Positions 2,521 through 63,927 of a stretch of DNA of 64,000 bases are shown here, piece after piece. The stretch spans positions 62,001-126,000 of the forward strand of contig JAFLEF010000016.1 of the NCBI GenBank assembly GCA_017309115.1. The letters are read 5' to 3'. A model generated the notes under the pieces. The model worked only from the letters and a program-made list of their open reading frames with translations. It was not told the DNA's origin and did not search any database. Origin of the DNA: Verrucomicrobiota bacterium. Its GTDB lineage: Bacteria > Verrucomicrobiota > Verrucomicrobiia > Limisphaerales > UBA9464. A program made the position numbers and the translations under genes. Numbering within the stretch: position 1 is the first letter of the stretch; every line of letters begins with the position of its first letter.

Positions 2521-2843
2521 AGTGGTTTAGTTCAGGATTGGGACGCACATCTGCGCGCCCAGTATTGGCTTTCGTATCCCGTGGTAAGCCGACACCCGAA
2601 GCGGGAGAGCGCCCTGGGCGTCGGAATGGGAAGAATTACAACTTGCTGGCTAACAGCGTCGTCGTTCACTGGCAAGAACTTTGGAACCCGCGGCCAACTC
2701 ACGAACGGCTGCAAATTTCGGGCTCGCCGCCGCTTCGACGAGCGCGTTCGTCCCACCCCGCCTTTGCTAAGTCAGAATCACTTCCAGGATTGCATGCGCC
2801 GGCTCAGCCGAGATGATGCCCGTCCGCTTTGAAACCATCCGGA
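2521..2843. other. Intergenic region between divergent genes
   Basis: About 320 bases separate the divergent starts of the secreted beta-helix protein and the CmcI-like gene. Short GC-rich self-complementary stretches occur (for example GCGCCC-T-GGGCGT around 2611-2624), but I see no tRNA, no recognisable riboswitch and no convincing -35/-10 pair. Open frames here on both strands overlap each other, have PVC-atypical composition and no family resemblance. The region presumably holds promoters for both flanking genes. Confidence 0.5.
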
Positions 2844-3572
2844 ATGAATCCGCACGATCCCAAGGACCCCGGTCTGATTGCCCAAATGGGTGCTGATCCT
2901 GAAGTCCAAGCCACCAGCCGACGGCTCTTCAACCTGACCTGTCGCTATCGCTACTCCTACAACTTCTCGTGGATGGGTCGACCTGTCATTCAGTACCCAC
3001 AGGACCTCGTGGCGATGCAGGAGATCCTGTGGGAGGTTCAACCCGATCTGATTGTTGAGACCGGCGTGGCCCACGGAGGCTCGCTGGTCTACTACGCTTC
3101 CCTGCTCGAACTGATCGGCAAACCCGCCAAGGTGCTGGGAATCGACATTGAGATTAGACCGCACAACCGCGCTGCCCTGGAAGCCCACCCCATGTTCCGG
3201 CGGATTGAGCTCCTGGAAGGCTCCTCGGTGTCACCGGAAATTGTTGCGCAAGTCCGGCAACGGGCAGCCGGAGCCCAACGGGTTTTGGTGGTGCTCGACT
3301 CCAATCACTCGCACGACCATGTCCTGAAAGAATTGCAGCTATACTCCCCGCTCGTCCGGGCCGGCAGCTACGTGGTGGTTTTTGACACCGTGGTCGAGGA
3401 CATGGATCCGGAATTGGTGGGAGAGCGGCCCTGGGGCAAGGGCGACAACGCCAAAACCGCCGTGCATGAGTTCCTCAAAAGCAACTCCCGGTTTGAGATC
3501 GATCATCAGATCGAAGACAAACTGCTGCTGACCGTAGCTCCGGACGGATACCTCCGGTGCCTACAGGACTGA
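2844..3572 (+). CDS. CmcI-family (cephalosporin hydroxylase-like) methyltransferase
   Basis: A protein of about 242 residues matching the CmcI/rhamnosyl O-methyltransferase family (Pfam cephalosporin hydroxylase), a class I Rossmann methyltransferase fold. The family signatures are visible: PDLIVETGVAHGGS (SAM-binding loop) around residue 65, VLGIDIEIRPHNR around 100, LEGSSVSPE, and LDSNHSHDHVLKEL around 155, which contains the metal/SAM region. Members methylate hydroxyl groups on sugars or natural products, usually near glycan genes; the substrate here cannot be told. A TTG five codons upstream (2829) is an alternative start. The next gene, a small methyltransferase, converges on it, which hints at a small glycan- or metabolite-modifying locus but proves nothing. 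Confidence 0.8.
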   Translation: MNPHDPKDPGLIAQMGADPEVQATSRRLFNLTCRYRYSYNFSWMGRPVIQYPQDLVAMQEILWEVQPDLIVETGVAHGGSLVYYASLLELIGKPAKVLGIDIEIRPHNRAALEAHPMFRRIELLEGSSVSPEIVAQVRQRAAGAQRVLVVLDSNHSHDHVLKELQLYSPLVRAGSYVVVFDTVVEDMDPELVGERPWGKGDNAKTAVHEFLKSNSRFEIDHQIEDKLLLTVAPDGYLRCLQD

Positions 3573-3641
3573 GGTTTCTCCAACGGTCGGCCCGAGCCTC
3601 CCACCGGCGGCGCCCAACTCCTGTTCGAAACCATTATCCAA

Positions 3642-4205
3642 TCACGCGCCACCGGTACGTTCGAACACGTAAAAATTATTCAGGCCCAATTGAAACCGTT
3701 GGTGCTTCACCAAGCGGAACCGGGGCGCACCGAAGAGTTGGGCGGTGCTCTCCACATCGAATCCGTGGTGTTCCTCCAGGGACATGCCATCCACTAGTCG
3801 CAACTGCTTGAGGATTCGAAGCAACCCATCAACCCGGGGACTGGGAACCGTCAGGAGAACCCGGCCGCCAGAGTGCAAATACTGGGCAATCCCCTCCACA
3901 AACGGACCCAGATGATTCCCGGGAATGTGCTCCAAAACGGCCAGCATGACGATGACATCGAACTGACCTGCGTTGGCGGGCATCTGGTCCGGAAAAAAGC
4001 CCCGACACAGTCGGAAGCCACCCGTAGTGCAGGTGTCCCGAGCCAGGGTTGGATCAATTCCCAAACTCCCCGCAGCCGCCTGCGAAAAGATCTGAAACAG
4101 CGCGCCGTTGGCACTACCCAGATCAAGAATCTTCTGACCAGGCTTCAGCCACGGCAGCACCCGGTTCAGGCGTTGGTGTTGTAACCATCGATCCAAAGGT
4201 TTCAT
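3642..4205 (-). CDS. Class I SAM-dependent methyltransferase
   Basis: A 187-residue protein of the Methyltransf_11/23 type. Motif I is KILDLGSANGALF (about residues 24-36), the acidic motif II residue is in SLGIDPTL, and motif IV is FDVIVMLAVLEHIP near residue 85. A post-motif GGRVLLTVPSPR strand follows, as in small-molecule and lipid methyltransferases. The length is short for the family, but both ends look intact. The ATG at 4205 has no clear ribosome binding site. It converges with the CmcI-like gene, ending 70 bases from its stop. The acceptor molecule is unknown. Confidence 0.75.
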   Translation of the reverse strand: MKPLDRWLQHQRLNRVLPWLKPGQKILDLGSANGALFQIFSQAAAGSLGIDPTLARDTCTTGGFRLCRGFFPDQMPANAGQFDVIVMLAVLEHIPGNHLGPFVEGIAQYLHSGGRVLLTVPSPRVDGLLRILKQLRLVDGMSLEEHHGFDVESTAQLFGAPRFRLVKHQRFQLGLNNFYVFERTGGA

Positions 4206-5873: not shown

Positions 5874-8861
5874 TCACGGGCTACCGCGCCAGGCCACCAA
5901 GCGTCCATCCTCGGTCAGGACCACCAGCCATCGGCCCAGTCGGTCGAAGGCGAGTTGACTAACCCCGGAATCCTGGTTTCCCGACTCGTTCGGCGGAATC
6001 ACCAGGGAGGTCAGGCGTCGGAATCCCGGAAGTTCCCAGAAGACCACCGTTCCCTCGTTGCCACCCGTGACCAGACGGGTTCCGTCCGGGCTGAACGCGA
6101 GGGCTCGAACGGATCCACTGTGGGCTTGCCAGGATCCGATCTTGTCTTGGGAAGGCCAGCGATAGGCGGCGATTCGCCCGCTCGCCCAACCTGCCACGAC
6201 CCACTGTCCTTGGGGCGCGAAGGCTGCGGCGGAAACCCGTCCTTGGCCCGGGTCTGCATCCAGAATCCGGGGCGCACCGCCGGTCACTGGCCAGAGTTGG
6301 ACCCGCCCATCTTCGCTCCCGCTCACAATCCAGGTGCCTTCGGTGGAGAGCGCCACCGACCAAACTGCCGAATTGGTCACCGCTTCCGTCACCCGCAACC
6401 GTAGTGTCGCCAGAGGATCAAACACCCGGAGACCTCCTTCCGAGAACCCAAACGCCACCCTGGGCGTGGCCTCCGACGCAGCAATCACCAACGGCGCCAC
6501 CCCTTCCAAGAGCTTCGGCCCTTGTTCGACCAACCGCCGCTCCCTGGTGTCCCAGCGTTGCAAATTCCACTCGGCTGAAAGGGCCCAAAGCTGCGAGTTC
6601 GTCCCGGCGGTTCCCAGGGGCAGAAACGCATTGGTCAGAACCCCGCGACGCTTCCCCGATGTCAGATCGACCACGGTTACGATCCCCGTCTGATCCGTTA
6701 CGGCCACTTGATCCCGAGCGTCCAACAGCGCCATTCCACCCAAAGGGTCGGCCCAAAAACCAGTGGCCCGGACCACCCCTTGCTGGCCGGTCAACGGCCA
6801 CACCCGCGAGGTCCGATCTTCACTGGCCGAAACCAAGGCCGCGCCGTCGGCAGTCCAAGCCACCGACCGGATGGATTGTTCATGCCCCAACCAGTTGCGG
6901 ACGGGGCGTCGGCTGGCCAGATCCCAAAGCCGGAGAACCCGATCCTCACCTGCCGACACCAACCGATCGCCCGTCGGAGAAAAAGCCAAGGTCCAAGTCT
7001 GACCCAAGGGACCCATCAGGGAGAAGGCCCCGGCTGATGTCGCGGTTTCGCCTCCGGCTTCCGGATACAATCGGACACCCTGTCCGGCGAGGCCCACGGC
7101 GAGAACCCGATGATTCGGTGAGAATGCCATGGACCCCACGCGTTCCACCGAAGCGTCGCGCCAAAGTTCCTTTCCACTGGGGATGTCCCACACCACCAAG
7201 GCTCGTTTCCACTGCGGACTCCGCTCATCAAAAAAACTCACCGCCAAACGGCGTGCGTCGGAAGTCGTCGCCATCCCACTGACCGACCAACCCGACCATT
7301 CTGCGGGAATCTGGAATTGCGCCCGTTCCGCTCGCGCCTCCAAGTCCCACCAATGAACCGACAGTGGTTCGTCGGGCGGACTGACCACCAGAACTCGTTC
7401 CGGCGAACCCCAAAGTCCCGCCAATGTGCCCCGGCCGGGCATCCATTCCGAAGTCCCTCCCGGGACGGTCCGCCAACCAAAGCGCCGATCCTGGGTGGAC
7501 AGGGACACTCGTTGTCCGTCGGAACTGAACCCGCCCAAACGCCAGACCCTAGGCACGAAGGCCAGAGGCGCGGGATTTCCCTCCTCCCACACCCGCAATT
7601 CTTGGGAATCTTCCAAGACGGCCAGTCGGCGACCATCAGGCGAAAGTGCGGCTTCGGTATTCGGTCCGATGCCGACCTGGACCCAACGATTGGAATCCCC
7701 CTGGGCCAACTGCTGCAACGCCTCCCACTCGAAGCCTCGTTGGGGAGGATCCACAGAGGTGGCTGCCGACCGAAGAGCCTGCCGGGCCACGCCCAGATCG
7801 CCAATCTGCAGCGCCAATTGCGCGCGATTTAGTTCCGACTGATACCACGCTTGTCGGGTCTCCCGCTCCTGGCGTTCACTGCGGATCCGGGCTTCGGTCT
7901 GCTGTTGAGCCAGTCGCCGATTGGACCGGCTCTCCTGCCACAGGAAGGTCAACGCCAACAGAAGGATCACGGCCGCCCAGGAACCCCAGCGGGCCACCCG
8001 CCGCCACCGCCGCCGCAATGTTGATAGTTCCTTGAGCGATCGGCCCGCCTCGATGAGCCGGAGATCGGCCATCATCGCCCCGAGATCAGGATACCGTTCC
8101 GACGGGCGATAGGAGCAGGCCCGAGTGATCACTTCGTTTAGCTCAAACACTTTGGTCGCGTCTGGCCAACCGATGAGCTCGGGAGGCAATCGGGGAAACT
8201 CCGCGGGCGCCATTCCGGTCGAGGCCACATAGAGCACTTTGCCCAGACTGAACTGGTCCGCCGGCTTGCTTCCGGGACCCTCGGGCGACTCGTAGCCTGG
8301 GGTGCCGACAGATGTAAGGGTCACTTCGGCGGAACTGACCAGCCCGACATCGGCAATTTTGGGCCGACCACCAACATAAATCAGGTTCGAGGGCTTAATG
8401 TCCCGATGGATGAGTCCCAAACCATGCAATTCGCCCAAGGCCGACGTCAGATCGACCGCCAACCGCAAGGCCTCGTCGGCCGACAGCCGACCCTTTTCCA
8501 ACAGCCGTTCCTTTAAGGTAAGCGGTTCGTAGGTCGCCGGATCGATCTCAGTTCCGCGGTGGAGATCATCCGCCAACTCCATCACATAGAAGAAGAACCC
8601 TTCAGCTTCATTGAGCCCCACATGAAGGAGCGCCAACTGACGGGCTTTGCCGAACGCGTGGCGTTGGAAGCGGGTAATGCCGTCCAACTCCCGCTGATAC
8701 GGACGGGGCGAATCAAACCGGCTGCGGGCCACAATTTTGACCGCCCGGTAAACGCCCGTAACACCTCGGGCCAGCCAGACATCCCCGTAACTTCCTCCGC
8801 CGATCCGACGGAGCAGTTCGTAGTCCGGAACCCGGGGCGCTGAAGAAGGCGAAGCGGCCAT
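5874..8861 (-). CDS. Serine/threonine protein kinase with WD40 repeats
   Basis: About 995 residues. The Hanks-type kinase domain covers roughly 14-270: glycine loop IGGGSYGDVW, Lys42 in AVKIV, catalytic HRDIKPSN (Asp154), metal-binding Asp171 in IADVGL (DVG in place of DFG), and GTPGYESPE in the activation/P+1 region. A transmembrane helix at about 295-308 (WAAVILLLALTFLW) follows, then a Gln/Arg-rich coiled coil. The remaining ~600 residues form WD40-type blades, e.g. LAFSPTGDRLVSAGEDRVLRLWD and similar units, enough for one or two propellers. It is probably an inner-membrane kinase, with the propeller side reading a protein partner or signal. The ECF sigma gene lies 87 bases upstream in the same direction, so the pair is likely one operon. 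ATG 8861 was preferred to the TTG two codons earlier. Confidence 0.9.
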   Translation of the reverse strand: MAASPSSAPRVPDYELLRRIGGGSYGDVWLARGVTGVYRAVKIVARSRFDSPRPYQRELDGITRFQRHAFGKARQLALLHVGLNEAEGFFFYVMELADDLHRGTEIDPATYEPLTLKERLLEKGRLSADEALRLAVDLTSALGELHGLGLIHRDIKPSNLIYVGGRPKIADVGLVSSAEVTLTSVGTPGYESPEGPGSKPADQFSLGKVLYVASTGMAPAEFPRLPPELIGWPDATKVFELNEVITRACSYRPSERYPDLGAMMADLRLIEAGRSLKELSTLRRRWRRVARWGSWAAVILLLALTFLWQESRSNRRLAQQQTEARIRSERQERETRQAWYQSELNRAQLALQIGDLGVARQALRSAATSVDPPQRGFEWEALQQLAQGDSNRWVQVGIGPNTEAALSPDGRRLAVLEDSQELRVWEEGNPAPLAFVPRVWRLGGFSSDGQRVSLSTQDRRFGWRTVPGGTSEWMPGRGTLAGLWGSPERVLVVSPPDEPLSVHWWDLEARAERAQFQIPAEWSGWSVSGMATTSDARRLAVSFFDERSPQWKRALVVWDIPSGKELWRDASVERVGSMAFSPNHRVLAVGLAGQGVRLYPEAGGETATSAGAFSLMGPLGQTWTLAFSPTGDRLVSAGEDRVLRLWDLASRRPVRNWLGHEQSIRSVAWTADGAALVSASEDRTSRVWPLTGQQGVVRATGFWADPLGGMALLDARDQVAVTDQTGIVTVVDLTSGKRRGVLTNAFLPLGTAGTNSQLWALSAEWNLQRWDTRERRLVEQGPKLLEGVAPLVIAASEATPRVAFGFSEGGLRVFDPLATLRLRVTEAVTNSAVWSVALSTEGTWIVSGSEDGRVQLWPVTGGAPRILDADPGQGRVSAAAFAPQGQWVVAGWASGRIAAYRWPSQDKIGSWQAHSGSVRALAFSPDGTRLVTGGNEGTVVFWELPGFRRLTSLVIPPNESGNQDSGVSQLAFDRLGRWLVVLTEDGRLVAWRGSP

Positions 8862-8948: not shown

Positions 8949-9566
8949 TTAACCCACCATTTCCCCCAGTCGTTCCAGTTCCCGCCGGGCACTTTGCCGG
9001 GTTCGGCAGATAATGGTGTCGACGGTTCCCCGACGCATTTTGAAGTGTTCGGCGACTTGGACCGGGGTCCAGCCATCAAACGTGATGAGGTGGTAAATTT
9101 GGTAATCCTTGGCCGAGACAATCTGCTTTAGCCGTCGCAGGAGCAGTTCGTGGAAGTCGCGATCGGTCACTTCACCCAATGGATCATCCGATCCGGGTGC
9201 TGCCACCCGTTCCGCGGTGGAGGTCCGCTCCTCCATGCCCTCCCGGTGCATTGGACTGGTCACCAGTCGCCGCTTCCGTTGCGCGTCAATCGCACACCAG
9301 GTCGTCAGTTGACCCAGCCAGCGCCGAAACGCTCCTGGGCGCCCCCCCGTTTCGAACACGCCGATGTTCCGGGCAACCCGGGAGAAGACTTCCTGCCCCA
9401 CTTCTTCCGCCTCGGATTCGGTGAGGCCATGCTGACGGCCAATGCTCAGCACCAACCGGCGATAGCGGTCGAAAAACTGACGCCAACCCTCGTCGTCTTC
9501 GAGGTCTTTGACGCGATTGATCAGTGTGCAGCTGGTGCGACGGCTGGAGTTAGTGGCGGTACCCAT
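8949..9566 (-). CDS. ECF-type sigma-70 family RNA polymerase sigma factor
   Basis: A 205-residue protein with region 2 at about 28-95 (FFDRYRRLVLSIGRQHG, EAEEVGQEVFSRVARN, FRRWLGQLTTWCAID) and region 4 near the C-terminus (GWTPVQVAEHFKMRRGTVDTI, a helix-turn-helix). It recruits core RNA polymerase to dedicated promoters. There is no anti-sigma factor next to it; instead the membrane Ser/Thr kinase with WD40 repeats follows in the same direction. ECF sigma factors paired with a Ser/Thr kinase are known in other phyla (EcfP/PknT in Vibrio), where phosphorylation of the sigma factor switches it on; that this holds here is inference. The ATG at 9566 has no obvious ribosome binding site. Confidence 0.9.
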   Translation of the reverse strand: MGTATNSSRRTSCTLINRVKDLEDDEGWRQFFDRYRRLVLSIGRQHGLTESEAEEVGQEVFSRVARNIGVFETGGRPGAFRRWLGQLTTWCAIDAQRKRRLVTSPMHREGMEERTSTAERVAAPGSDDPLGEVTDRDFHELLLRRLKQIVSAKDYQIYHLITFDGWTPVQVAEHFKMRRGTVDTIICRTRQSARRELERLGEMVG

Positions 9567-50910: not shown

Positions 50911-51687
50911 TCAACTGACCTCAAAGAGCGTCACTTCCGGTCGGCAGTTGAAGCGCAACGAACACGAGGCCAGGGTCCCAATTCCTGGATTCACATAGAT
51001 CCGGCCGGCCGCGGTCTCGAACAGTCCCAGATCATACTTCCCCACCGAACCCGGCAGGAGCAGCGGACCAAAGTACGGAAGCCGCACCTGCCCGCCGTGA
51101 CTGTGGCCGGCCAGCATCAGATCACACCGCTGTTGTCGGAGGCGGTCAATGTGGATGGGAAAGTGGGAGAGAACCAAGTTGAAGACTCCTGCTTCCGCCA
51201 CATAGGAACCGGGAAGCCGGTCCACCCCATGAATCCGCAGGCGATCGTCGGCCAGGATTGCTCGATCCGGCAGCCAAGCCCCACCACTGGTCCGACACAG
51301 CTGGGCCAAGATCCCCAGATTGGCCCGACTCCAGTGATCGTGGTTCCCCGGAACCGCGAACAAGGGAACTCGCAACGGACGCAGCGCCTCCACCGCCCCG
51401 TTGAGATAGGGAGCTTCTTCGATCAGATCGCCGGTAAAGCAGGCAAAGTCCGGCCGCAATTGCTGGATGGCGTGCACCACCGATTCCAGCCAACGGTAAT
51501 CGCCCCGAAAGTGCACATCGGTGAAGTGGACGAAGCGATATCGGATCGGGCCTTCCCCCAAACGGATCGTCTCTATCTTCAACCACCGCGGTTCCACCAA
51601 GGCAGACTGACCCAAACACGCGGCCGGAATTCCCCAAGCCAGGGAGGTCAGGAACGAGCGGCGGGAAACCGGAAAAGCAGCCTTCAA
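50911..51687 (-). CDS. Tat-exported calcineurin-like phosphoesterase (YkuE/YaeI type)
   Basis: 258 residues. A twin-arginine signal (VSRRSFLTSLAW) leads into metallophosphatase motifs in order: FTDVHFRG, CFTGDLIEEAP, VPGNHDHW, SHFPIH and AGHSHGGQ, which provide the two-metal site. YkuE-like enzymes cleave small phosphate esters and some release UDP-linked lipids. The only start seen is TTG 51687. The left copy of the parD repeat begins 11 bases upstream of it, so its original control region may be altered. Confidence 0.88.
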   Translation of the reverse strand: MKAAFPVSRRSFLTSLAWGIPAACLGQSALVEPRWLKIETIRLGEGPIRYRFVHFTDVHFRGDYRWLESVVHAIQQLRPDFACFTGDLIEEAPYLNGAVEALRPLRVPLFAVPGNHDHWSRANLGILAQLCRTSGGAWLPDRAILADDRLRIHGVDRLPGSYVAEAGVFNLVLSHFPIHIDRLRQQRCDLMLAGHSHGGQVRLPYFGPLLLPGSVGKYDLGLFETAAGRIYVNPGIGTLASCSLRFNCRPEVTLFEVS

Positions 51688-51697
51688 GCGGAACGAT

Positions 51698-52011
51698 AGA
51701 CCACGGAGTCCGGCTCTCGTTCAGCAGGAACCGTAAGCACGCGAAACGCGTCCAAGTTTCGTCGCTGGTGAATCCAGCGATTCTCCCGTGGAGGACGCGG
51801 AGTTAGCGGAGGGAGAATCCGCAGCCGACGGCGGTAGAAGGCGGCATCCATCTCCCCATCGCTAGGCCAGACTAGGCCGGGCGGTCGAGCCGCTTCTGCG
51901 CACCGACACCGCGTCGGCACCGAAAAAGCGGTGTGAAACCTTACCGCTCTCGACCTGTCTCGAATCCATCGGCACCCGCGCCGGTCAGGCGCGACTATCC
52001 AAAGAGCGAGC
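51698..52011. repeat. Left copy of the parD direct repeat, with internal deletion
   Basis: This stretch matches 56079-56524 in the same orientation, base for base over most of its length (e.g. GGAGTCCGGCTCTCGTTCAG, and GTAGAAGGCGGCATCCATCT). About 140 bases that exist in the right copy (roughly 56234-56373) are absent at the junction near 51866, and this removes the antitoxin start. A dyad GATTCTCCC...GGGAGAATC (51779-51819) lies in both copies. Confidence 0.85.
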
Positions 52012-52027
52012 TAACGTGTCACTTTAA
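51866..52027 (+). pseudogene. Truncated ParD-like antitoxin remnant (left copy)
   Basis: After the deletion the left copy still reads in frame as the C-terminal half of the ParD-like protein: LGRAVEPLLRTDTA, then PLSTCLESIGTRAGQARLSK, then a new end and TAA at 52025-52027. No start codon or N-terminal ribbon-helix-helix region remains, so it cannot make a working antitoxin. Several base changes against the right copy (e.g. ...SAPKKRCETL against ...ALKKRGETI) show it has been free to drift. Confidence 0.7.
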
Positions 52028-52038
52028 GTCACAGCGAC

Positions 52039-55000
52039 TCACGGTTGTTGGACGGGAATTCGGATCGTTCCCAAATCCACCGGCGGATCATTGAAACTCC
52101 CCGCCGGAATGACGACGGGAACTTCCAGTTTCCCCAACTCCGGACGGTCCCACGCTTGCCCGTCCTCGTCTGAGTCTTTTGGCGGAGCCGTCAGGCGGAT
52201 CTTGAGCATATAGCTTCCCCCCGGAACGTCGTGCAGGTGAAACGTGCCGTCGGGTTGGATGTCGGGATAAAACTTATGAATCTGCCGCTCCCGGCGGGCG
52301 CGCTTCAACGCCATCTTCTGAAACTCAGGACTGCCGGGGTGATCCCGGATCTCCACCGGTGGGAGGTCCGCGCGCACTTGTTCCAGCGTTTGCAGGTCCA
52401 GCCGCCAATCGTATCCGGCGATGGGTTGGGCGAGTTCGAAGCGTCCGGTCACTGCTCGTCCGGTCAGGGCCAACGTCACTTCCGCCACCCCTCCTGAAGG
52501 CACTTCCACCCGTTGGATTGGACCATGGCCTACGATTCCCGTTTCTCCAGGCGAATACTTATAAACCCGACAGACCGCGACCGGTCCGGGAGGAACGTGA
52601 TCGAAGCGGAACCGTCCGGCGTCGTCGGTCATCACTGAATCGCTGACCAATGCCGGAGTCGGGCCGGACTCGTGGTCAGGATACCAAGGTTGCAGTAAAA
52701 CGCTCTGATTCGGAGTCGGCTGCCCGGCCGTGATCATCACGCCTTCGATGGCGCCCCACGGCCTGAGGTTAATGGTGGGCAAATTCGCTCCTGCCACCGG
52801 GACCTGTGCGAAGCCGGATTCATGCACCACCACCAGGCTGGTTGAGTTTGGCTTAAGGCGTAGCGAGAACTTCCCGTCGGCTTCGGTGATGGCCTGCGGC
52901 GCGTCCGCGCTCGAAAACGCCCCCGCACCGCGAACGATAAAGCCAAATCCCAACCCGTTGAGTCCCACCACCGCACCCGCCACCGGGTGGCCCGACCCAT
53001 CGACCACCCGCCCCACGACCGAACCACCCCGCTTCAGTCGAAACGCAAATGCTTGGTCGTCATCTCCTACCGGCCGAATGTCCGAGACCGCTGGTTCGTA
53101 GCCGTCGCCCTCCACCTCCAGGGAGAATTGGTGGTGGAAGGCCATGTGGACGGGCCAGTCAAAGCGCCCCTGGTGCCCCTCGCCGAGGAAGTTCAATGCG
53201 GTCCCGCGATGCTCAAGCAGGCGAACCCGGAATTGGGGAACCGCCTCACCCGATTCCGCATCGACCACGGTGCCCGTGATTCGCACCGTCTTCGCTGCCT
53301 CCCATCCCTGTTCCCAGTCGGTTTTCGAGCCATCCGGAAGGGACAAGCGAACGACCAGTTCCTCGGCTTTAGCCCCCACCGAAACCTCCTGCTCAGAGGA
53401 TTTGAAGCCTTCGGCCCGCACTTCGAGCTTCACGGGTTCCGCGGGAAACGGGCCGATGACGAACCGGCCCTCAGGACCGCTCACGGCTTTTCGTTCATCA
53501 CCGCCATGGGTTCCCGATTCGACCAGGGTGGCGTCAGGAACCGGGTTTTGATCTTCGTCCTCTACCCGTCCGGCGACCCAAAGGCCGGTCTGGAGAACCA
53601 CCTGATGGTTGGTGGACAGAGAGACGGCTCCATCAAGCCACCTCCGAGCCCGCACGAAATCGGGGTGAAGGACGGAATAGCTCATGTGCGACTGATTGCC
53701 TCGGAGGTTAGGGAGTTGGTCGCTGCGGAAGCGCCCGGCGGAATCGGTGGTGACCGCCGTGAAGCGCGGGGAGTAGGCGATGTTGGCCCGCTCTCCCAGA
53801 TCGAATCCGGGCCCGTGAAGGATCACTTGAGCATTGTTCACCGGACGGCCTTGCTCGTCCTGCACCACGCCTTCCAACAATTGCCCGGGCTCCAGGACGC
53901 ATTGATACGGCAGGAAGGGCTCGACGAACTCGTGGCGTTTCCAGGAGATCATTTGCGGAACATGTCCGGCTGCGGAAACGGTGACAAAGACCGCGCTCAC
54001 CTCGACGCCGTTGACCGGAATCTCGACGTAGCCCCGTTCGTCGGTGTGGAAATCCACGGTCCCCAGTCGCCTACGGTCTCCCCAAATGGAGGCGGATACG
54101 GGAGCACTCAGTGCCTGGTTTCCAGCCGACGACCGAACCGTCAGCAGAATCTTGGACGGTCCCGGCTGCGCGGGGCTCAGGGTGCTGGTTGTAGCGCTCA
54201 ACTGGGCCACAGGGATTGACTCCGGGGAGGCGGCCACCGGGGAGGTTAAATCATGCGACGGTCGCGAATGGAGCGAGTGCCACCTAGCCACACCCATAAT
54301 GACCAGTAACGCGGCGATGGCCCAGGGTTGGAATCGTCGCAGGGAGGCGAGCCAGACATCGCGCACGGCCCCGGTGGCGAGGCTGGCCACCGAAGCCGGT
54401 ACTTTGGCCGTTGCTGCCAGGGCGATCTGCCGGGCCAGGCTGGAGGGCGCAGCGGTAGTGGGAAGGTTCCCCAGGAGCACCAACAGGCTGGCCGCTGTGA
54501 GTGTCACGCCCCGTTTCGCCAACCAATGGCGAAGCTTTTCCACAGCCCGGCTAACCCGCTTCTTTGCCGCCTCTTCGTTGATCCCCAGTCGTTCCCCCAC
54601 GGTCCGAAACGACTGATGTTCGAAGAAGCGCAGCAGGATTGCGTCCCGGTCTCCGGTCGGCAGAGCGGCCAGGGCCGCATCCAGATGCGGTTCGACGGAA
54701 CTCCAAGGTTCAGGAGGGTTGGGTAAATCCGAGAGTGTGGTTTGCATGGAGGCGAGGGTTTCGTGTTGGGATCGGCGCTGTTCCGCCCGCAGAGCGCGGG
54801 CAGCCACGAAGCGGGTGGTGCGAAGCAGCCAGCCCGAGAGCACCACCCGGGGACTCAAAGAACCCGCCTTGCGCGCCAACACCAGGAACACGGCTTGAGC
54901 CACGTCATCCGCCAGCGGAGAAGGCCCCACTTGGCGGCGGGCGGCGGCATAGACCGTGTCCAGGTGACGGCTGACAAGTTGGGCAAACGCGGTTTCGTCA

Positions 55001-55053
55001 CGTTGGGTGGCCCAGGCCTGGAGCAGTTCTGAGTCATTCATGGTCTGTTTCAT
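52039..55053 (-). CDS. ECF sigma factor fused to transmembrane and carboxypeptidase-regulatory-like domains
   Basis: About 1004 residues. Region 2 (about 5-75; FAQLVSRHLDTVYAAARRQVG, DDVAQAVFLVLARK) and region 4 (about 120-170; AILLRFFEHQSFRTVGERLGINEEAAKKRVSRA) form an ECF sigma factor. Two hydrophobic segments follow (LTAASLLVLLGNLP, FQPWAIAALLVIMGVARW at about 245). After a Ser/Pro linker about 700 residues carry repeated carboxypeptidase-regulatory-like (CarboxypepD_reg) folds: GxVxDEQGRPVNNAQV, GRVEDEDQNPVPDATLV, GTVVDAESGEAVPQFRV and GRVVDGSGHPVAGAVV, each about 80-120 residues. The sigma part is in the cytoplasm and the repeats in the envelope, so it is likely an integrated sensor-regulator, perhaps freed by proteolysis. 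ATG 55053 was preferred because residue 1 then begins the sigma domain; the longer frame has no family match. Confidence 0.85.
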   Translation of the reverse strand: MKQTMNDSELLQAWATQRDETAFAQLVSRHLDTVYAAARRQVGPSPLADDVAQAVFLVLARKAGSLSPRVVLSGWLLRTTRFVAARALRAEQRRSQHETLASMQTTLSDLPNPPEPWSSVEPHLDAALAALPTGDRDAILLRFFEHQSFRTVGERLGINEEAAKKRVSRAVEKLRHWLAKRGVTLTAASLLVLLGNLPTTAAPSSLARQIALAATAKVPASVASLATGAVRDVWLASLRRFQPWAIAALLVIMGVARWHSLHSRPSHDLTSPVAASPESIPVAQLSATTSTLSPAQPGPSKILLTVRSSAGNQALSAPVSASIWGDRRRLGTVDFHTDERGYVEIPVNGVEVSAVFVTVSAAGHVPQMISWKRHEFVEPFLPYQCVLEPGQLLEGVVQDEQGRPVNNAQVILHGPGFDLGERANIAYSPRFTAVTTDSAGRFRSDQLPNLRGNQSHMSYSVLHPDFVRARRWLDGAVSLSTNHQVVLQTGLWVAGRVEDEDQNPVPDATLVESGTHGGDERKAVSGPEGRFVIGPFPAEPVKLEVRAEGFKSSEQEVSVGAKAEELVVRLSLPDGSKTDWEQGWEAAKTVRITGTVVDAESGEAVPQFRVRLLEHRGTALNFLGEGHQGRFDWPVHMAFHHQFSLEVEGDGYEPAVSDIRPVGDDDQAFAFRLKRGGSVVGRVVDGSGHPVAGAVVGLNGLGFGFIVRGAGAFSSADAPQAITEADGKFSLRLKPNSTSLVVVHESGFAQVPVAGANLPTINLRPWGAIEGVMITAGQPTPNQSVLLQPWYPDHESGPTPALVSDSVMTDDAGRFRFDHVPPGPVAVCRVYKYSPGETGIVGHGPIQRVEVPSGGVAEVTLALTGRAVTGRFELAQPIAGYDWRLDLQTLEQVRADLPPVEIRDHPGSPEFQKMALKRARRERQIHKFYPDIQPDGTFHLHDVPGGSYMLKIRLTAPPKDSDEDGQAWDRPELGKLEVPVVIPAGSFNDPPVDLGTIRIPVQQP

Positions 55054-55236
55054 CTCACCCAGTAGTCCCCGGCCACGGACCAAAGGGACAAGAATCGGTG
55101 ACCGGAGAGAAGTACCTCGACCATGCCAATGAGATCGCCACTCCCTTGTTCCCCGGAATCTAGGTTGCCAAGAGAATCCATTGCCCGAAGCCTGCGGATT
55201 AGTCCCCCCGTCGCTCACCCCGAAACAGAACACCCC

Positions 55237-56061
55237 ATGAAAACCCCGATTTCGACTGCACTTCGCTTGGCTTGCCTCCTCGTCCTACCTCACTCCGTAT
55301 GGTCCATAACGGTGCCGGTCATGTATTACGACTTTCTCGGGGAGGGGGCACCGTCTTCACTCGGCCGAATGGTCCATCCCGATTTCGATTTGGAACCGCG
55401 GCTGACTCCGACTCCCGGGTTGGTCCAACCGCAGTTGACCGGGCTCACGCCGGAGTTTCGGTCAACCGGCGGAGCTCCCCTCGATCGGCCCCAGCTCACC
55501 ACCGCGGAGAACTTGGCGTCCTGGTTTGTCCCGGATCCAACCTACAACCTGGCGATTCCAAGTGGTTTGAACGCCCGTAGGAACTCGGGGCATTTACAGC
55601 TCTATTACCCGACGGGGTTCTTTCCAATCGACGGACAAGGTTTGGGAGATTTCCGAGACACGGGACACAACCCTCATTTCACGATGAGCTTTTCGTGGCG
55701 TTCGACCTATATGGCGAACCGGCCGAATGTCTTCGAGTTCGCCAGCGATGACGACTTGTGGGTGTTCATCAATGGCCGGCTGTGGGTCGACCTTGGAGGC
55801 ATTCGCCCGGCGGAAAACGCGCCGTTGGTCCTGGACCTCAACGCGGACGCCCCCGAACTCGGCTTGATTGACCACCGCCGATTCAGCTTCCAACTCTTCT
55901 ACGCCCAACGAAACGCCGAGCAGGCGGGACTGGTCGCTACCTTACCCATCTACAGCCCGCCCATACCCGAGACCGCCGTCGGGATTCCGCTCAGCCTCCT
56001 CGGCGGCTGGGCCGTCGCGATCAGCGTTCGGCGCCGTCTGGGCACTGGGGTCAGATTCTGA
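55237..56061 (+). CDS. Fibro-slime domain secreted protein with C-terminal sorting-like tail
   Basis: About 274 residues. Signal peptide MKTPIST...VLPHSVWS (about 1-23). The mature domain matches the fibro-slime / PA14-related domain: MYYDFLGEG at the start, FTMSFSWRSTYMANRPNVFEFASDDDLWVFINGRLWVDLGG in the core, and RRFSFQLFYAQRNAEQAGL. The C-terminus has PIPETAVGIPLSLLGGWAVAISVRRRL, a PExT-hydrophobic-RRR pattern that resembles a PEP-CTERM-like exosortase sorting tail, though no exosortase is in view. It is divergent from the sigma-fusion gene, with 183 bases between the starts, and the two are bounded by the parD repeats. Confidence 0.8.
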   Translation: MKTPISTALRLACLLVLPHSVWSITVPVMYYDFLGEGAPSSLGRMVHPDFDLEPRLTPTPGLVQPQLTGLTPEFRSTGGAPLDRPQLTTAENLASWFVPDPTYNLAIPSGLNARRNSGHLQLYYPTGFFPIDGQGLGDFRDTGHNPHFTMSFSWRSTYMANRPNVFEFASDDDLWVFINGRLWVDLGGIRPAENAPLVLDLNADAPELGLIDHRRFSFQLFYAQRNAEQAGLVATLPIYSPPIPETAVGIPLSLLGGWAVAISVRRRLGTGVRF

Positions 56062-56078
56062 CCAACGGACCCCAACAA

Positions 56079-56524
56079 GACCAAGGAGTCCGGCTCTCGT
56101 TCAGAGGGACCAGAAAGCATTCGAGACGCGTCCGCGTATCGTCGCAGCGAATCTCCCGCGGAGGACGCGGAGTTCGCGGAGGGAGAATCCGCAGCCGCCG
56201 GTAGAAGGCGGCATCCATCTCCCCACCGCCAGGTGAGGCTTGCCCCCGAGGTGGCAAAACGCCACTTTAGCTCCATGGGACAACCTGTGAAGCTCTCCGA
56301 AAGTCTCGTCCTGGACGCCCGGCTCACCGGGGAGGTCGCGGAACGTTCCATCGCCGGGCAGATCGAGTTCTGGGCCGGACTAGGCCGGGCGGTCGAGCCG
56401 CTTCTGCGCACCGACACCGCGTTAGCGCTGAAAAAGCGGGGTGAAACCATTCCGCTCTCGACCTGTCTCGAATCCATCGGCACCCGCGCCGGTCAGGCAC
56501 GACTATCCAAAGTGTTGAGCGAGC
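56079..56524. repeat. Right copy of the parD direct repeat, full length
   Basis: The intact counterpart of 51698-52011. It starts 17 bases after the fibro-slime stop and runs into the antitoxin gene. The segment before the gene carries the dyad GAATCTCCC...GGGAGAATC. About 4.4 kb lie between the same points of the two copies. Confidence 0.85.
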
Positions 56525-56646
56525 GCCCTTATCCGCATTTTGAACCCGCCGCGCAAACGGGGTTGATCATCCGGATTGAGAAGGATGGCACTCGAACCAC
56601 GGGCCGATTCGTCAACCGAGAATTCCGTCCGTCCCAGCCCCAGTGA
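56275..56646 (+). CDS. ParD-like antitoxin family protein, without adjacent toxin
   Basis: 123 residues from ATG 56275. The family start is conserved: MGQPVKLSESLVLDARLTGEVAERSIAGQIEFWAGLGRAVEPLLR (quoted in pieces here to mark its two helices). This is the ParD_like (PF11903) type, a ribbon-helix-helix antitoxin region, followed by an unusual basic/Pro tail (RTTGRFVNREFRPSQPQ). No ParE or RelE-type toxin follows: the next gene is a response regulator. It may be an orphan or a regulator in its own right. A weak or absent ribosome binding site makes the exact start uncertain; GTG 56233 is an in-frame alternative. Confidence 0.75.
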   Translation: MGQPVKLSESLVLDARLTGEVAERSIAGQIEFWAGLGRAVEPLLRTDTALALKKRGETIPLSTCLESIGTRAGQARLSKVLSERPYPHFEPAAQTGLIIRIEKDGTRTTGRFVNREFRPSQPQ

Positions 56647-56773
56647 CACCGTCATTGGATTCACGTCCGAACAGGACCCAAACGCATTCGAGACGCCGAT
56701 CTCGGGGCTTAGAGCCCAGACCGCGACGGACTTTATTTGCGAACGGGTTCCCTTCAGAGTCGCCGTGCTGTCC

Positions 56774-57457
56774 ATGCGATTGTTGGTCATTGAGGATGAA
56801 CCCAAGGTGGCGGACGCCCTCGCCTCGGGTCTGGAAGAAGAGGGATTCCGGGTCCGTGTCGCCCGCGATGGCCTCGACGGGGGCCATCGCGCCCTGACGG
56901 AACCCTGGGATCTGGTCGTCCTCGACCTGTATCTCCCCGGAATGGACGGGCTGGAGGTGTTGCGCCGGATGCGCGCTTCGGGCAATCGCACCCGGGTCCT
57001 AATCCTGACCGCTCAGGACTCCGTGGCGGATCGCGTCCGCGGATTGGAAGCCGGAGCGGACGACTACCTGGCCAAGCCCTTTGCGTTTGAGGAATTGCTG
57101 GCCCGGGTGCGCGCGCTGCTTCGACGGGGACGGGAGGTAGAGCCCGAGGTGTTGCGACTGGCAGACTTGGAACTGGACCCGCGCCGGCGTCGGGTGACGC
57201 GCGGGGGACGGGAGGTGGAACTGACCGCCCGGGAATTCGAGGTGCTCGCCTTCCTCCTGCGCCATGCCGGAGAGGTCGTCTCCCGTACCCGGTTGGTCGA
57301 ACATGTGTGGGACGAAAACTTCGACTCCCTGAGCAATGTCGTCGACGTCACTCTGTACCATGTGCGGACCAAGGTGGATCGGGGATTCCCGGAGCCTCTG
57401 ATCCACACTGTCCGGGGGGCCGGGTATGTCATCCGGGAGCCTGACCATGGCCGGTAG
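56774..57457 (+). CDS. OmpR/PhoB-family response regulator (CusR/CopR-like)
   Basis: 227 residues from ATG 56774. Receiver domain with IEDEPKVADALASGL, phospho-Asp in DLVVLDLYLPGMDGL and LAKPFAFEELLARVRALLRR, then a winged-helix DNA-binding domain (VELTAREFEVLAFLLRHAGEVVSRTRLVEHVWDENFD to YHVRTKVDRG). It belongs to the group that controls metal efflux in many bacteria; targets here are unknown. A kinase gene follows 108 bases later. The longer frame at 56576 overlaps the antitoxin gene and is not used. Confidence 0.9.
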   Translation: MRLLVIEDEPKVADALASGLEEEGFRVRVARDGLDGGHRALTEPWDLVVLDLYLPGMDGLEVLRRMRASGNRTRVLILTAQDSVADRVRGLEAGADDYLAKPFAFEELLARVRALLRRGREVEPEVLRLADLELDPRRRRVTRGGREVELTAREFEVLAFLLRHAGEVVSRTRLVEHVWDENFDSLSNVVDVTLYHVRTKVDRGFPEPLIHTVRGAGYVIREPDHGR

Positions 57458-57565
57458 TGCGAACCCGCGAACCCGTTGCCCCGCAAATCCAGGTGTTTCA
57501 TCTGGATTTCATCCGGGACAGGCCAGTCTGCGGTTCAGGTCCGTCTTTTGATCGCCGTGCTCTCG

Positions 57566-58879
57566 ATGCGCCACAGGTTTCTGGCCGGGTTCAGCCTGAT
57601 GCAGGCCGTCTTGGCGGCAGTGGCGGTGTGGCGTGGGGTGATCCGGCTCAATGAGGCCGCGACCGAGGCTCAGGGCCAGCACTTGAAGGATCAGGTGCAG
57701 ATCGCCGGTTTGGTCCTCCGGGAAGGAGTGCCGCCCGAGCGCCTCGCGGACGACCCGCGGTTTGAGGCGGGGAGGATGGGATTCTCGCTCCAGGTGGAAC
57801 GCCTCGGCGGACAGACATCGGAGCCTCCGGGACGGCCCGGCGTTCCGGTGCTGGCGGCGTCGGAATCCGGAACGCCCATGGCGGAGCTGTTGGTGGAATT
57901 GCCGGAAAAGGCCGGTGGCCGGATGAAGCTGCGCCTGTCCGGACAGAGCGCCCCGCAGCACCGGCGGCGGGTCGCTGGCTTGGTGTTGGGAGGAGTGATC
58001 TACGTGGGCTTGAGTGTGGGAGCAGCCGCCGTTCTGACCCGTCGCTGGCTGCGCGCTTTGGGACGCATGTCCGAGGCGGCGCGGCGGTTGGGGCTGGATC
58101 CGACTGCAAAGGGCCGGTTGCCCGTGCCGAAGACCGAGGCGGAACTCGCCGCCTTCGCCGAAACCCTCAACGGCTTTCTGGACCGGCTGGAGGCAGATTA
58201 CGGCGCCCGGAACCGGTTTCTGGCCGATGCCGCCCATGAGTTGCGCACGCCCCTGACGGCCCTGCGCGCCGAAATAGATGTCGCCCTGCGACGGGACCGG
58301 GAGCCCGCGCGGTATCGGCAGGTCCTCGAAAGCAATCGCGAGGAACTCGTCCGGCTTTCGGAGTTGATCGATGGGTTGCTGACACTGGCGCGCGCCGACG
58401 CCGGCGAAAGCATCCGCCCGACCGCGCCGCTGGACAGTGTTCCGCTGGCAGCACAGGCCGTGGAACGGTTTCGTCCCCTGGCACTGCAACGGGGGATTGA
58501 CCTGGTGCTTTCCCAGGAAAGCGGGCCCGGGGCGGCGATCCCGGTCCGCGCCGATGCCCGATCGGTGGAGCGGATCCTCGACAATCTGCTCTCGAACGCC
58601 CTCCGCCACACCGATGCGGGAGGCCGGGTGACAGTGAGCGGGAGGACCGCGGGATCCCGGGCGATTCTGGAGATCACCGACACTGGAACGGGCATTCCTC
58701 CGGCGCATGTTGCCCGGGTGTTCGACCGCTTCTACCGGGTGGAATCCGGGCGAGGTGCGGGCGCGGGACTGGGACTGGCGATCGTGAAGGCCTTGGTGGA
58801 GGCCCTCGGTGGAGACGTCCGGCTAGAGAGCGAGCTGGGCCGGGGCACACGGGTGGAAGTTCGCCTACCTTTGGCGTGA
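57566..58879 (+). CDS. Sensor histidine kinase, partner of the upstream response regulator
   Basis: 437 residues from ATG 57566. Two transmembrane helices (MQAVLAAVAVW near 12 and VAGLVLGGVIYVGLSVGAAAVL near 135) bracket a short periplasmic domain, with HAMP (RALGRMSEAARRLG), HisKA (DAAHELRTPLTALRAEID, phospho-His), N box LDNLLSNALRHTDAGG, and G boxes ITDTGTGIPPAH and GAGLGLAIVKAL. Typical CusS/heavy-metal type length. It probably senses an envelope stress or metal. No metal-transport gene is seen downstream; an FG-GAP/NHL secreted protein follows instead. Confidence 0.9.
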   Translation: MRHRFLAGFSLMQAVLAAVAVWRGVIRLNEAATEAQGQHLKDQVQIAGLVLREGVPPERLADDPRFEAGRMGFSLQVERLGGQTSEPPGRPGVPVLAASESGTPMAELLVELPEKAGGRMKLRLSGQSAPQHRRRVAGLVLGGVIYVGLSVGAAAVLTRRWLRALGRMSEAARRLGLDPTAKGRLPVPKTEAELAAFAETLNGFLDRLEADYGARNRFLADAAHELRTPLTALRAEIDVALRRDREPARYRQVLESNREELVRLSELIDGLLTLARADAGESIRPTAPLDSVPLAAQAVERFRPLALQRGIDLVLSQESGPGAAIPVRADARSVERILDNLLSNALRHTDAGGRVTVSGRTAGSRAILEITDTGTGIPPAHVARVFDRFYRVESGRGAGAGLGLAIVKALVEALGGDVRLESELGRGTRVEVRLPLA

Positions 58880-63185: not shown

Positions 63186-63680
63186 TCACAGTCTCGACTC
63201 CTCTTCCAAAACCATACTGACCAAGGTTGGGTCGAGGTGGATTCCCTTGGCCACCAGGCGGTCTGTCGCAGCTTTCATGGACGGAATCAGCCTCCGTCGT
63301 CGCAAAGCCAGCAAGATCCCGAGCGTGCCGGTGACACGCAGGCCATGGAGCGCGGCCCAGCGGCGGCCTTTGCGCTCGTCAATCACTACCGTGCCCACGC
63401 TTTCCGTTAGCGCGGTGTGGAGTACCGCCGCTTCGCCCGGTCCGAGGACCCCCTGAAAAATGGGCGGCAAAGAAGGAAATTCCGGCCTAATCTGGCAAAA
63501 CTCCGCAGCCCGAACCGCCACGGCTGCGTGGTCACGGTCGGCTCCCGCAGTGAGTTCGGTCAGCACCTCACCGGGAACAATCAGCGTCGCGACTTCCGCC
63601 AAGACCCGAAAGTCATCCAACCCCGCAACCAGCGCAACGAGCGGACTGGTGTTAATGACCAGCGAGGGCTTGTTCTGCAT
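63186..63680 (-). CDS. DUF3368 PIN-like toxin
   Basis: 164 residues from ATG 63680. DUF3368 signatures: VINTSPLVALVAG (PIN entry with Asn in place of Asp), LGPGEAAVLHTA and VVIDERKGRRWAALHGLRVTGTLGILL. It is a predicted ribonuclease toxin. It overlaps the UPF0175 antitoxin gene upstream by 29 bases, the usual arrangement of this type II toxin-antitoxin system. Confidence 0.85.
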   Translation of the reverse strand: MQNKPSLVINTSPLVALVAGLDDFRVLAEVATLIVPGEVLTELTAGADRDHAAVAVRAAEFCQIRPEFPSLPPIFQGVLGPGEAAVLHTALTESVGTVVIDERKGRRWAALHGLRVTGTLGILLALRRRRLIPSMKAATDRLVAKGIHLDPTLVSMVLEEESRL

Positions 63681-63927
63681 GAGCGAGTTCGGTGGCCAAC
63701 TCCGCCGCGTTGAGCTGGAGGGGCGAGGTCCCGAAACGACCGAGTTCATAGAGGAAGTGGACTCGGGGCATCTGCGCGATGCCGGCCGCCTGGCTGGAGG
63801 AGAGGCGGCCGGTTTCGTAAAGCTTCACCGCCATGGCCAGTCGAGCCTCGCGCTCAAACTCCGCCGGGCTCATGTGGAGCAGGTCGGGTAGCGTGTCCGG
63901 GTATTCCAGCGTCAACGTCTTGCTCAT
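63652..63927 (-). CDS. UPF0175 family antitoxin
   Basis: 91 residues from ATG 63927. Family match: LTLEYPDTLPDLLHMSPAEFEREARLAMAVKLYETGRLSSSQAAGIAQMPRVHFLYELGRFGTSPL (shown in part), which forms a helix-turn-helix at the end, as in DUF3368-linked antitoxins. It would repress its own promoter and neutralise the DUF3368 protein that overlaps it. The longer frame from 63999 is not needed. Confidence 0.85.
   Translation of the reverse strand: MSKTLTLEYPDTLPDLLHMSPAEFEREARLAMAVKLYETGRLSSSQAAGIAQMPRVHFLYELGRFGTSPLQLNAAELATELAHAEQALAGH

Follow-up and report, generated by a model that had tools for sequence, protein, structure and literature searches.

The window, a 64,000-nt stretch of a Verrucomicrobiota bacterium (GCA_017309115.1, JAFLEF010000016.1, positions 62,001-126,000 of the forward strand), contains two similar segments in the same orientation which carry parD-like sequence and enclose two genes. 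The question is whether this layout represents a parD locus bordering a surface regulatory unit that may be lost by recombination, as was proposed in the first-pass annotation, or the remains of another system. The genome of origin comprises 7.53 Mb in 111 contigs, with a completeness of 95.3% and a contamination of 3.69%.

The repeat pair and the genes it encloses

The features of the locus are listed below by position in the window, with U denoting the segment upstream of parD.

50911..51687, minus strand: YaeI-like metallophosphoesterase, left flank (Pfam/NCBIfam searches)
51697..51861, plus strand: left copy of U, 134/152 identical to 56077-56228 in three blocks; its core at 51788-51811 has two mismatches
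51862..52003, plus strand: left parD-like fragment, a probable pseudogene, codons ~33-80, N- and C-terminal parts absent (132/142 vs 56370-56511)
52039..55041, minus strand: ECF sigma factor with three CarboxypepD_reg stretches, 1000 aa (Pfam/NCBIfam)
55237..56061, plus strand: fibro-slime domain protein, 274 aa (TIGR02148, E 1.6e-16)
56077..56228, plus strand: right copy of U (pairwise alignment, core-free probe)
56158..56181, plus strand: dispersed core GCGGAGGACGCGGAGTTCGCGGAG inside U, exact (core search)
56275..56646, plus strand: intact ParD-like antitoxin gene, probably an orphan (PF11903, E 6.8e-11)
56643..56673, plus strand: putative remnant of the start of a Zeta toxin gene, about ten codons (DNA homology of 56237-56673 to locus L044 of genome G004)
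56674..56696, plus strand: third, short stretch resembling U where zeta breaks off (20/23 vs 56107-56129)
56774..57457, plus strand: OmpR-type response regulator, right flank (Pfam/NCBIfam)
57476-58879: sensor kinase after the response regulator (profile searches)

The left copy (51697-52003, 307 nt) and the right copy (56077-56511, 435 nt) form a direct repeat. Their near identity, first noted at ~51698 and ~56079, holds up on full alignment, with 266 of 294 ungapped positions identical (90.5%) in blocks of 55/68, 48/51, 31/33 and 132/142. Relative to the right copy, the left one carries two additional stretches (10 and 3 nt) and is missing 141 nt corresponding to 56229-56369, including the parD start at 56275, in agreement with the earlier estimate of ~140 lost bases. 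It ends at about codon 80 of the 123 codons of parD, and an in-frame stop is also present.

Probes of 20 and 25 nt matched exactly at both copies and at no other position of the window with up to three mismatches (shuffle expectation 0.01 and 0.00, respectively). In the whole genome a 631-nt probe produced 46 matches, with 40 of the 129 first-look candidates scored; three of them represent the two copies and 43 fall within probe positions 62-121, that is, the dispersed core. This search revealed no further copy of the long repeat, and scattering over many unrelated sites, which would have made the flanking coincidental, applies to the ~30-nt core alone. An 85-nt core-free probe matched only the two copies across 59 genomes, and on these grounds U was rejected as a mobile repeat. 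The dispersed element of ~30 nt (56158-56181 and 51788-51811) has TCTCCC/GGGAGA inverted ends, and a 26-nt form of its core is found with up to one mismatch at 21 places of the same genome and in none of the 58 relatives.

As first described, only two genes lie between the copies and they are divergent, namely the ECF sigma/CarboxypepD_reg fusion (minus strand) and the fibro-slime gene (plus strand). The sigma fusion has two paralogues in its own genome. Among 38 other genomes, full-length relatives were found in G016, G007 and G018, and a relative split over two contigs in G003. In the stretches fetched around these relatives, where the G003 contigs break within the gene, neither parD nor zeta nor a fibro-slime gene was detected at E <= 1e-5. 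The fibro-slime gene has three further matches in its own genome and none at E <= 0.001 in 58 other genomes. Because the sigma relatives have no fibro-slime gene nearby and the fibro-slime gene is unmatched in the 58 genomes, the pair does not appear to be a conserved two-gene unit, and the idea of a 4.4-kb module for surface regulation that is gained and lost as a whole is not supported. Judged from these comparisons, the two genes look like passengers. No RNA family at gathering score and no tRNA was found. The literature search returned no paper on ECF sigma factors with a carboxypeptidase regulatory-like domain or on ECF factors of Verrucomicrobia.

The antitoxin and its missing toxin

The right copy contains a complete ParD-like antitoxin gene, as the first-pass annotation had suggested. 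Its product matches PF11903 with 42.4 bits (cut-off 23) and agrees with the consensus at 37 of the 38 columns that are at least 90% conserved in 37 relatives. The predicted structure was weak (pLDDT 72.8, pTM 0.37) and provided no ribbon-helix-helix match, with no PDB structure matched at E <= 0.001; a PDB sequence match was not found either.

The partner of this family is a Zeta toxin. In G004, which belongs to the same genus, an antitoxin of 91-93% identity is directly followed by a PF06414 Zeta gene. A search in contigs of other genomes provided 545 relatives, the best 80 of which were taken for neighbourhood analysis, and zeta is located just downstream in 78 of the 79 evaluable loci. The exceptions among these 80 are L137, without zeta, and L142, whose contig ends too early to be evaluated. 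Within the 58 other genomes the antitoxin has matches in seven, five of them with adjacent zeta (G004, G056, G005, G050 and G026). Of the other two, G011 showed no zeta and G047 carries a parD/zeta remnant of reduced length. Since the relatives have zeta downstream, the gene of the repeats is assigned to the ParD-like (PF11903) antitoxins of the Zeta-paired kind and not to those paired with ParE. A ParDE system was rejected on the same grounds, and the gene downstream in the window is a response regulator and not a ParE partner. Thus, of the parD locus initially proposed, the flanking by a ParD-like segment stands, but an ordinary parD locus is not supported, as the partner in this family is Zeta and the window seems to have lost it.

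A short open reading frame at L082:8282-8563 fuses a ParD-like start with zeta-like end pieces and has the form of a shortened remnant. In the window, a DUF3368 protein (PF11848) is encoded at 63186-63749 on the minus strand, which we take as a possible member of another toxin-antitoxin pair.

Pairs of the same two Pfam families are described for mycobacteria in PMC5728571 and PMC6362051, and according to the former (MHSD3) the toxin is neutralised by the ParD-like antitoxin in E. coli. The mycobacterial pairs resemble the window locus in having the antitoxin first and an antitoxin of ~120-130 aa. In contrast to them, the window locus appears to have its toxin gene deleted and its antitoxin region duplicated and partly decayed.

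The DNA homology between the window and the L044 locus of G004 extends from 56237 to 56673 and stops about ten codons into zeta. Only residues 1-9 of zeta are recognizable in the window, at E 6.3, and no PF06414 gene lies downstream of the antitoxin. A zeta match in the same genome was absent at E <= 0.001, in a search without a positive control and in a genome 95.3% complete. Because the zeta homology ends at 56673 and the genome shows no zeta match, the locus is read as a remnant and not as a working ParD-like/Zeta module. The right copy, a complete antitoxin without a cognate toxin within the limits of this completeness, is for the same reasons very probably an orphan, and the left copy a pseudogene. 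A zeta gene placed in the missing part of the genome would count against the loss of the toxin. Exactly where the homology stops, the U-like stretch at 56674-56696 scores 31, a value reached by none of 1000 shuffles, while the best score in the rest of the window, the copies excluded, is 27; this stretch was spotted by eye before it was scored.

For orphan antitoxins, the reviews PMC7354431 and PMC2654758 propose degraded pairs or anti-addiction. The window gene shares with them a complete antitoxin without toxin. In contrast to the anti-addiction systems described there, an incoming Zeta carrier was not seen: the antitoxin has 0 matches in 72,556 plasmid records and five partial matches (44-49%) in viral contigs. 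The orphan, if made, may have kept the ability to bind related Zeta toxins that enter the cell and to neutralise them, and it would be expected to bind its own promoter.

With G004 as the outgroup, differences between the copies were polarised, on a small number of coding substitutions (10). Seven of the 10 are derived in the left copy, six of these seven at codon positions 1 or 2. Two are derived in the right copy, both at codon position 3, and one is ambiguous. The right parD differs from that of G004 at 48 sites (11 first, 4 second and 33 third codon positions), with dN 0.04 and dS 0.51. This pattern suggests purifying selection on the right copy, in which the periods before and after the loss of the toxin are inseparable.

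The dS between the window and G004 is 0.74 for rpsI, 1.02 for rplM, 1.14 for argC and 1.66 for the phosphoesterase, and the genomic context of the antitoxin differs between the two genomes. Since the dS of parD lies below these four values and the context differs, the antitoxin seems in this comparison to be younger than the other four genes, in line with a transfer; the patchy dS evidence comes from a single gene pair. The ParD-like/Zeta locus would therefore have been gained horizontally.

Origin of the two copies

In all likelihood, each repeat corresponds to the 5' part of a ParD-like/Zeta locus which entered the genome, was duplicated and decayed. According to this explanation, a ParD-like/Zeta locus would have been gained and then duplicated, leaving two copies of its 5' part. 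In the right copy the toxin gene would have been deleted about ten codons from its start, resulting in a solitary antitoxin, and the left copy would have decayed to a pseudogene. The duplication itself could have occurred through a tandem event followed by losses or through an insertion with a long target duplication, both of which fit the arrangement.

A tandem duplication of U-parD-zeta, followed by deletions and the insertion of the sigma and fibro-slime genes (or the duplication of a larger unit, the rest of which was lost), is plausible, if not quite probable. Direct repeats in proximity are common in this genome, a fact that weighs against the window pair being special. In 780 kb of its other DNA, 51 direct-repeat alignments were found (at least 100 nt, at least 75% identity, spacing up to 15 kb), 39 of which are spaced by at least 1 kb. 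Their distribution is uneven, with 33 in one 180-kb stretch and two in another 200 kb. A tandem origin is also in line with the AbiEi/AbiEii locus of contig C1, where a 255-nt partial copy lies 2.5 kb away, and with the G+C content of the insert (0.621), which equals that of the window (0.614). On the other hand, it leaves unexplained why exactly two genes are bracketed, with the copies trimmed to 35 nt from the stop codon of the sigma fusion and 15 nt from that of the fibro-slime gene.

The AbiEi/AbiEii-like locus mentioned above (C1 95248-98567, L215) has an AbiEii match at E 4e-37 and an AbiEi_4 match below its cut-off. Its partial copy, downstream, corresponds to the start of the toxin gene and is identical at 253 of 255 positions; the longer copy has an interrupted frame, and the other one is cut short. 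A dense family of 100-250 nt repeats is located at ~97-109 kb of contig C90, and one of its members has 64 matches in 864 kb.

Insertion with a long target duplication in the order U-parD ... short-U, followed by a deletion that removed the toxin and stopped at the third U-like stretch, is possible but rather unlikely. Such insertions are described for restriction-modification genes (Nobusato et al. 2000, as cited in PMC1643837). There, as in the window, a gene unit is enclosed by long direct repeats; a transposase is lacking in the described insertions, and none was seen among the 13 window proteins scanned with Pfam. The restriction-modification insertion is known through the comparison of two genomes, whereas an empty site was not found for the window locus. 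No relative that keeps both flanks adjacent was found by searches with the phosphoesterase, the kinase, argC and the sigma fusion and in the neighbourhoods fetched. The rplM-rpsI-argC order is kept in G001-G004, and none of the window genes that lie to the right of it turned up in the stretches fetched there. A region of G003 (C444) was considered as an orthologous empty site, with a phosphoesterase of 54% identity and a regulator/kinase pair of 36% and 34% located ~4 kb away, and was rejected as too distant.

The 23-nt U-like stretch exactly at the point where the zeta homology stops is in favour of insertion, and so is locus L112 of another bacterium, which closely parallels the window in having, beside repeats, an antitoxin copy whose zeta was lost immediately behind the toxin start. 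At L112, the homology of parD#1 (2242-2607, PF11903) to parD#2 ends at 2693, ~80 nt past its stop, and no zeta match accompanies parD#1 at E <= 0.01. It is followed by repeat X (2712-3691), 3.4 kb of DNA, X' (7100-7882), parD#2, zeta#2 (PF06414) and X'' (8969-9525). The last of these corresponds to the 3' end of a gene for an ATP synthase V/A-type subunit. The whole region (L112:2209-9525) thus adds to the window a second case of an antitoxin copy deprived of zeta, here beside repeats of this gene end.

Among 55 parD-zeta loci, four also have tight flanking direct repeats, where placements within the same loci (54 of them with sufficient room) predict 0.37; the criteria were fixed after a looser look (8/54 loci, then the stricter 4/55). 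Against a gene-boundary control, where 2 of 165 placements (49 loci) carried such repeats, the excess is weak (Fisher p 0.035; expectation 1.5, Poisson p 0.066). A replication set matched 6 of 387 genomes, the present one included, which provided too few loci. Because of this weak excess, insertion is ranked below tandem duplication plus loss. The broader proposal is doubtful: in Verrucomicrobiota and neighbouring groups, ParD-like/Zeta modules would insert with long target duplication, and the repeats would then help to delete the toxin and leave orphans, with the window and L112 as independent cases at one and the same stage.

A reversible or strain-variable 4.4-kb surface module recombining between the repeats is very improbable: the identical runs of 47 and 45 nt shared by the copies make loss of the unit by recombination possible in principle, but identity between the copies has dropped to 90.5% and the left copy seems to be decaying as a pseudogene, the enclosed genes are not a conserved unit, no transposase, recombinase or other mobility gene was found among 13 nearby window proteins scanned with Pfam, and the deletion form was not seen in the relatives examined. 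An assembly artefact joining two haplotypes or strains, conceivable for 111 contigs with 3.69% contamination, is just as improbable, as decay is clear on one side only and the copies have different coherent flanks.

The reading of the locus is thus corrected from a surface switch to what is most probably a decayed toxin-antitoxin remnant. A duplicated ParD-like/Zeta remnant with a solitary antitoxin would be ordinary in kind. Here the toxin seems to have been lost and the antitoxin kept in a family where the pair is nearly always whole (78/79 evaluable loci, drawn from the 80 best of 545 relatives). If it holds in a larger set, the flanking-repeat pattern would represent a testable route from the entry of a module to orphan antitoxins.
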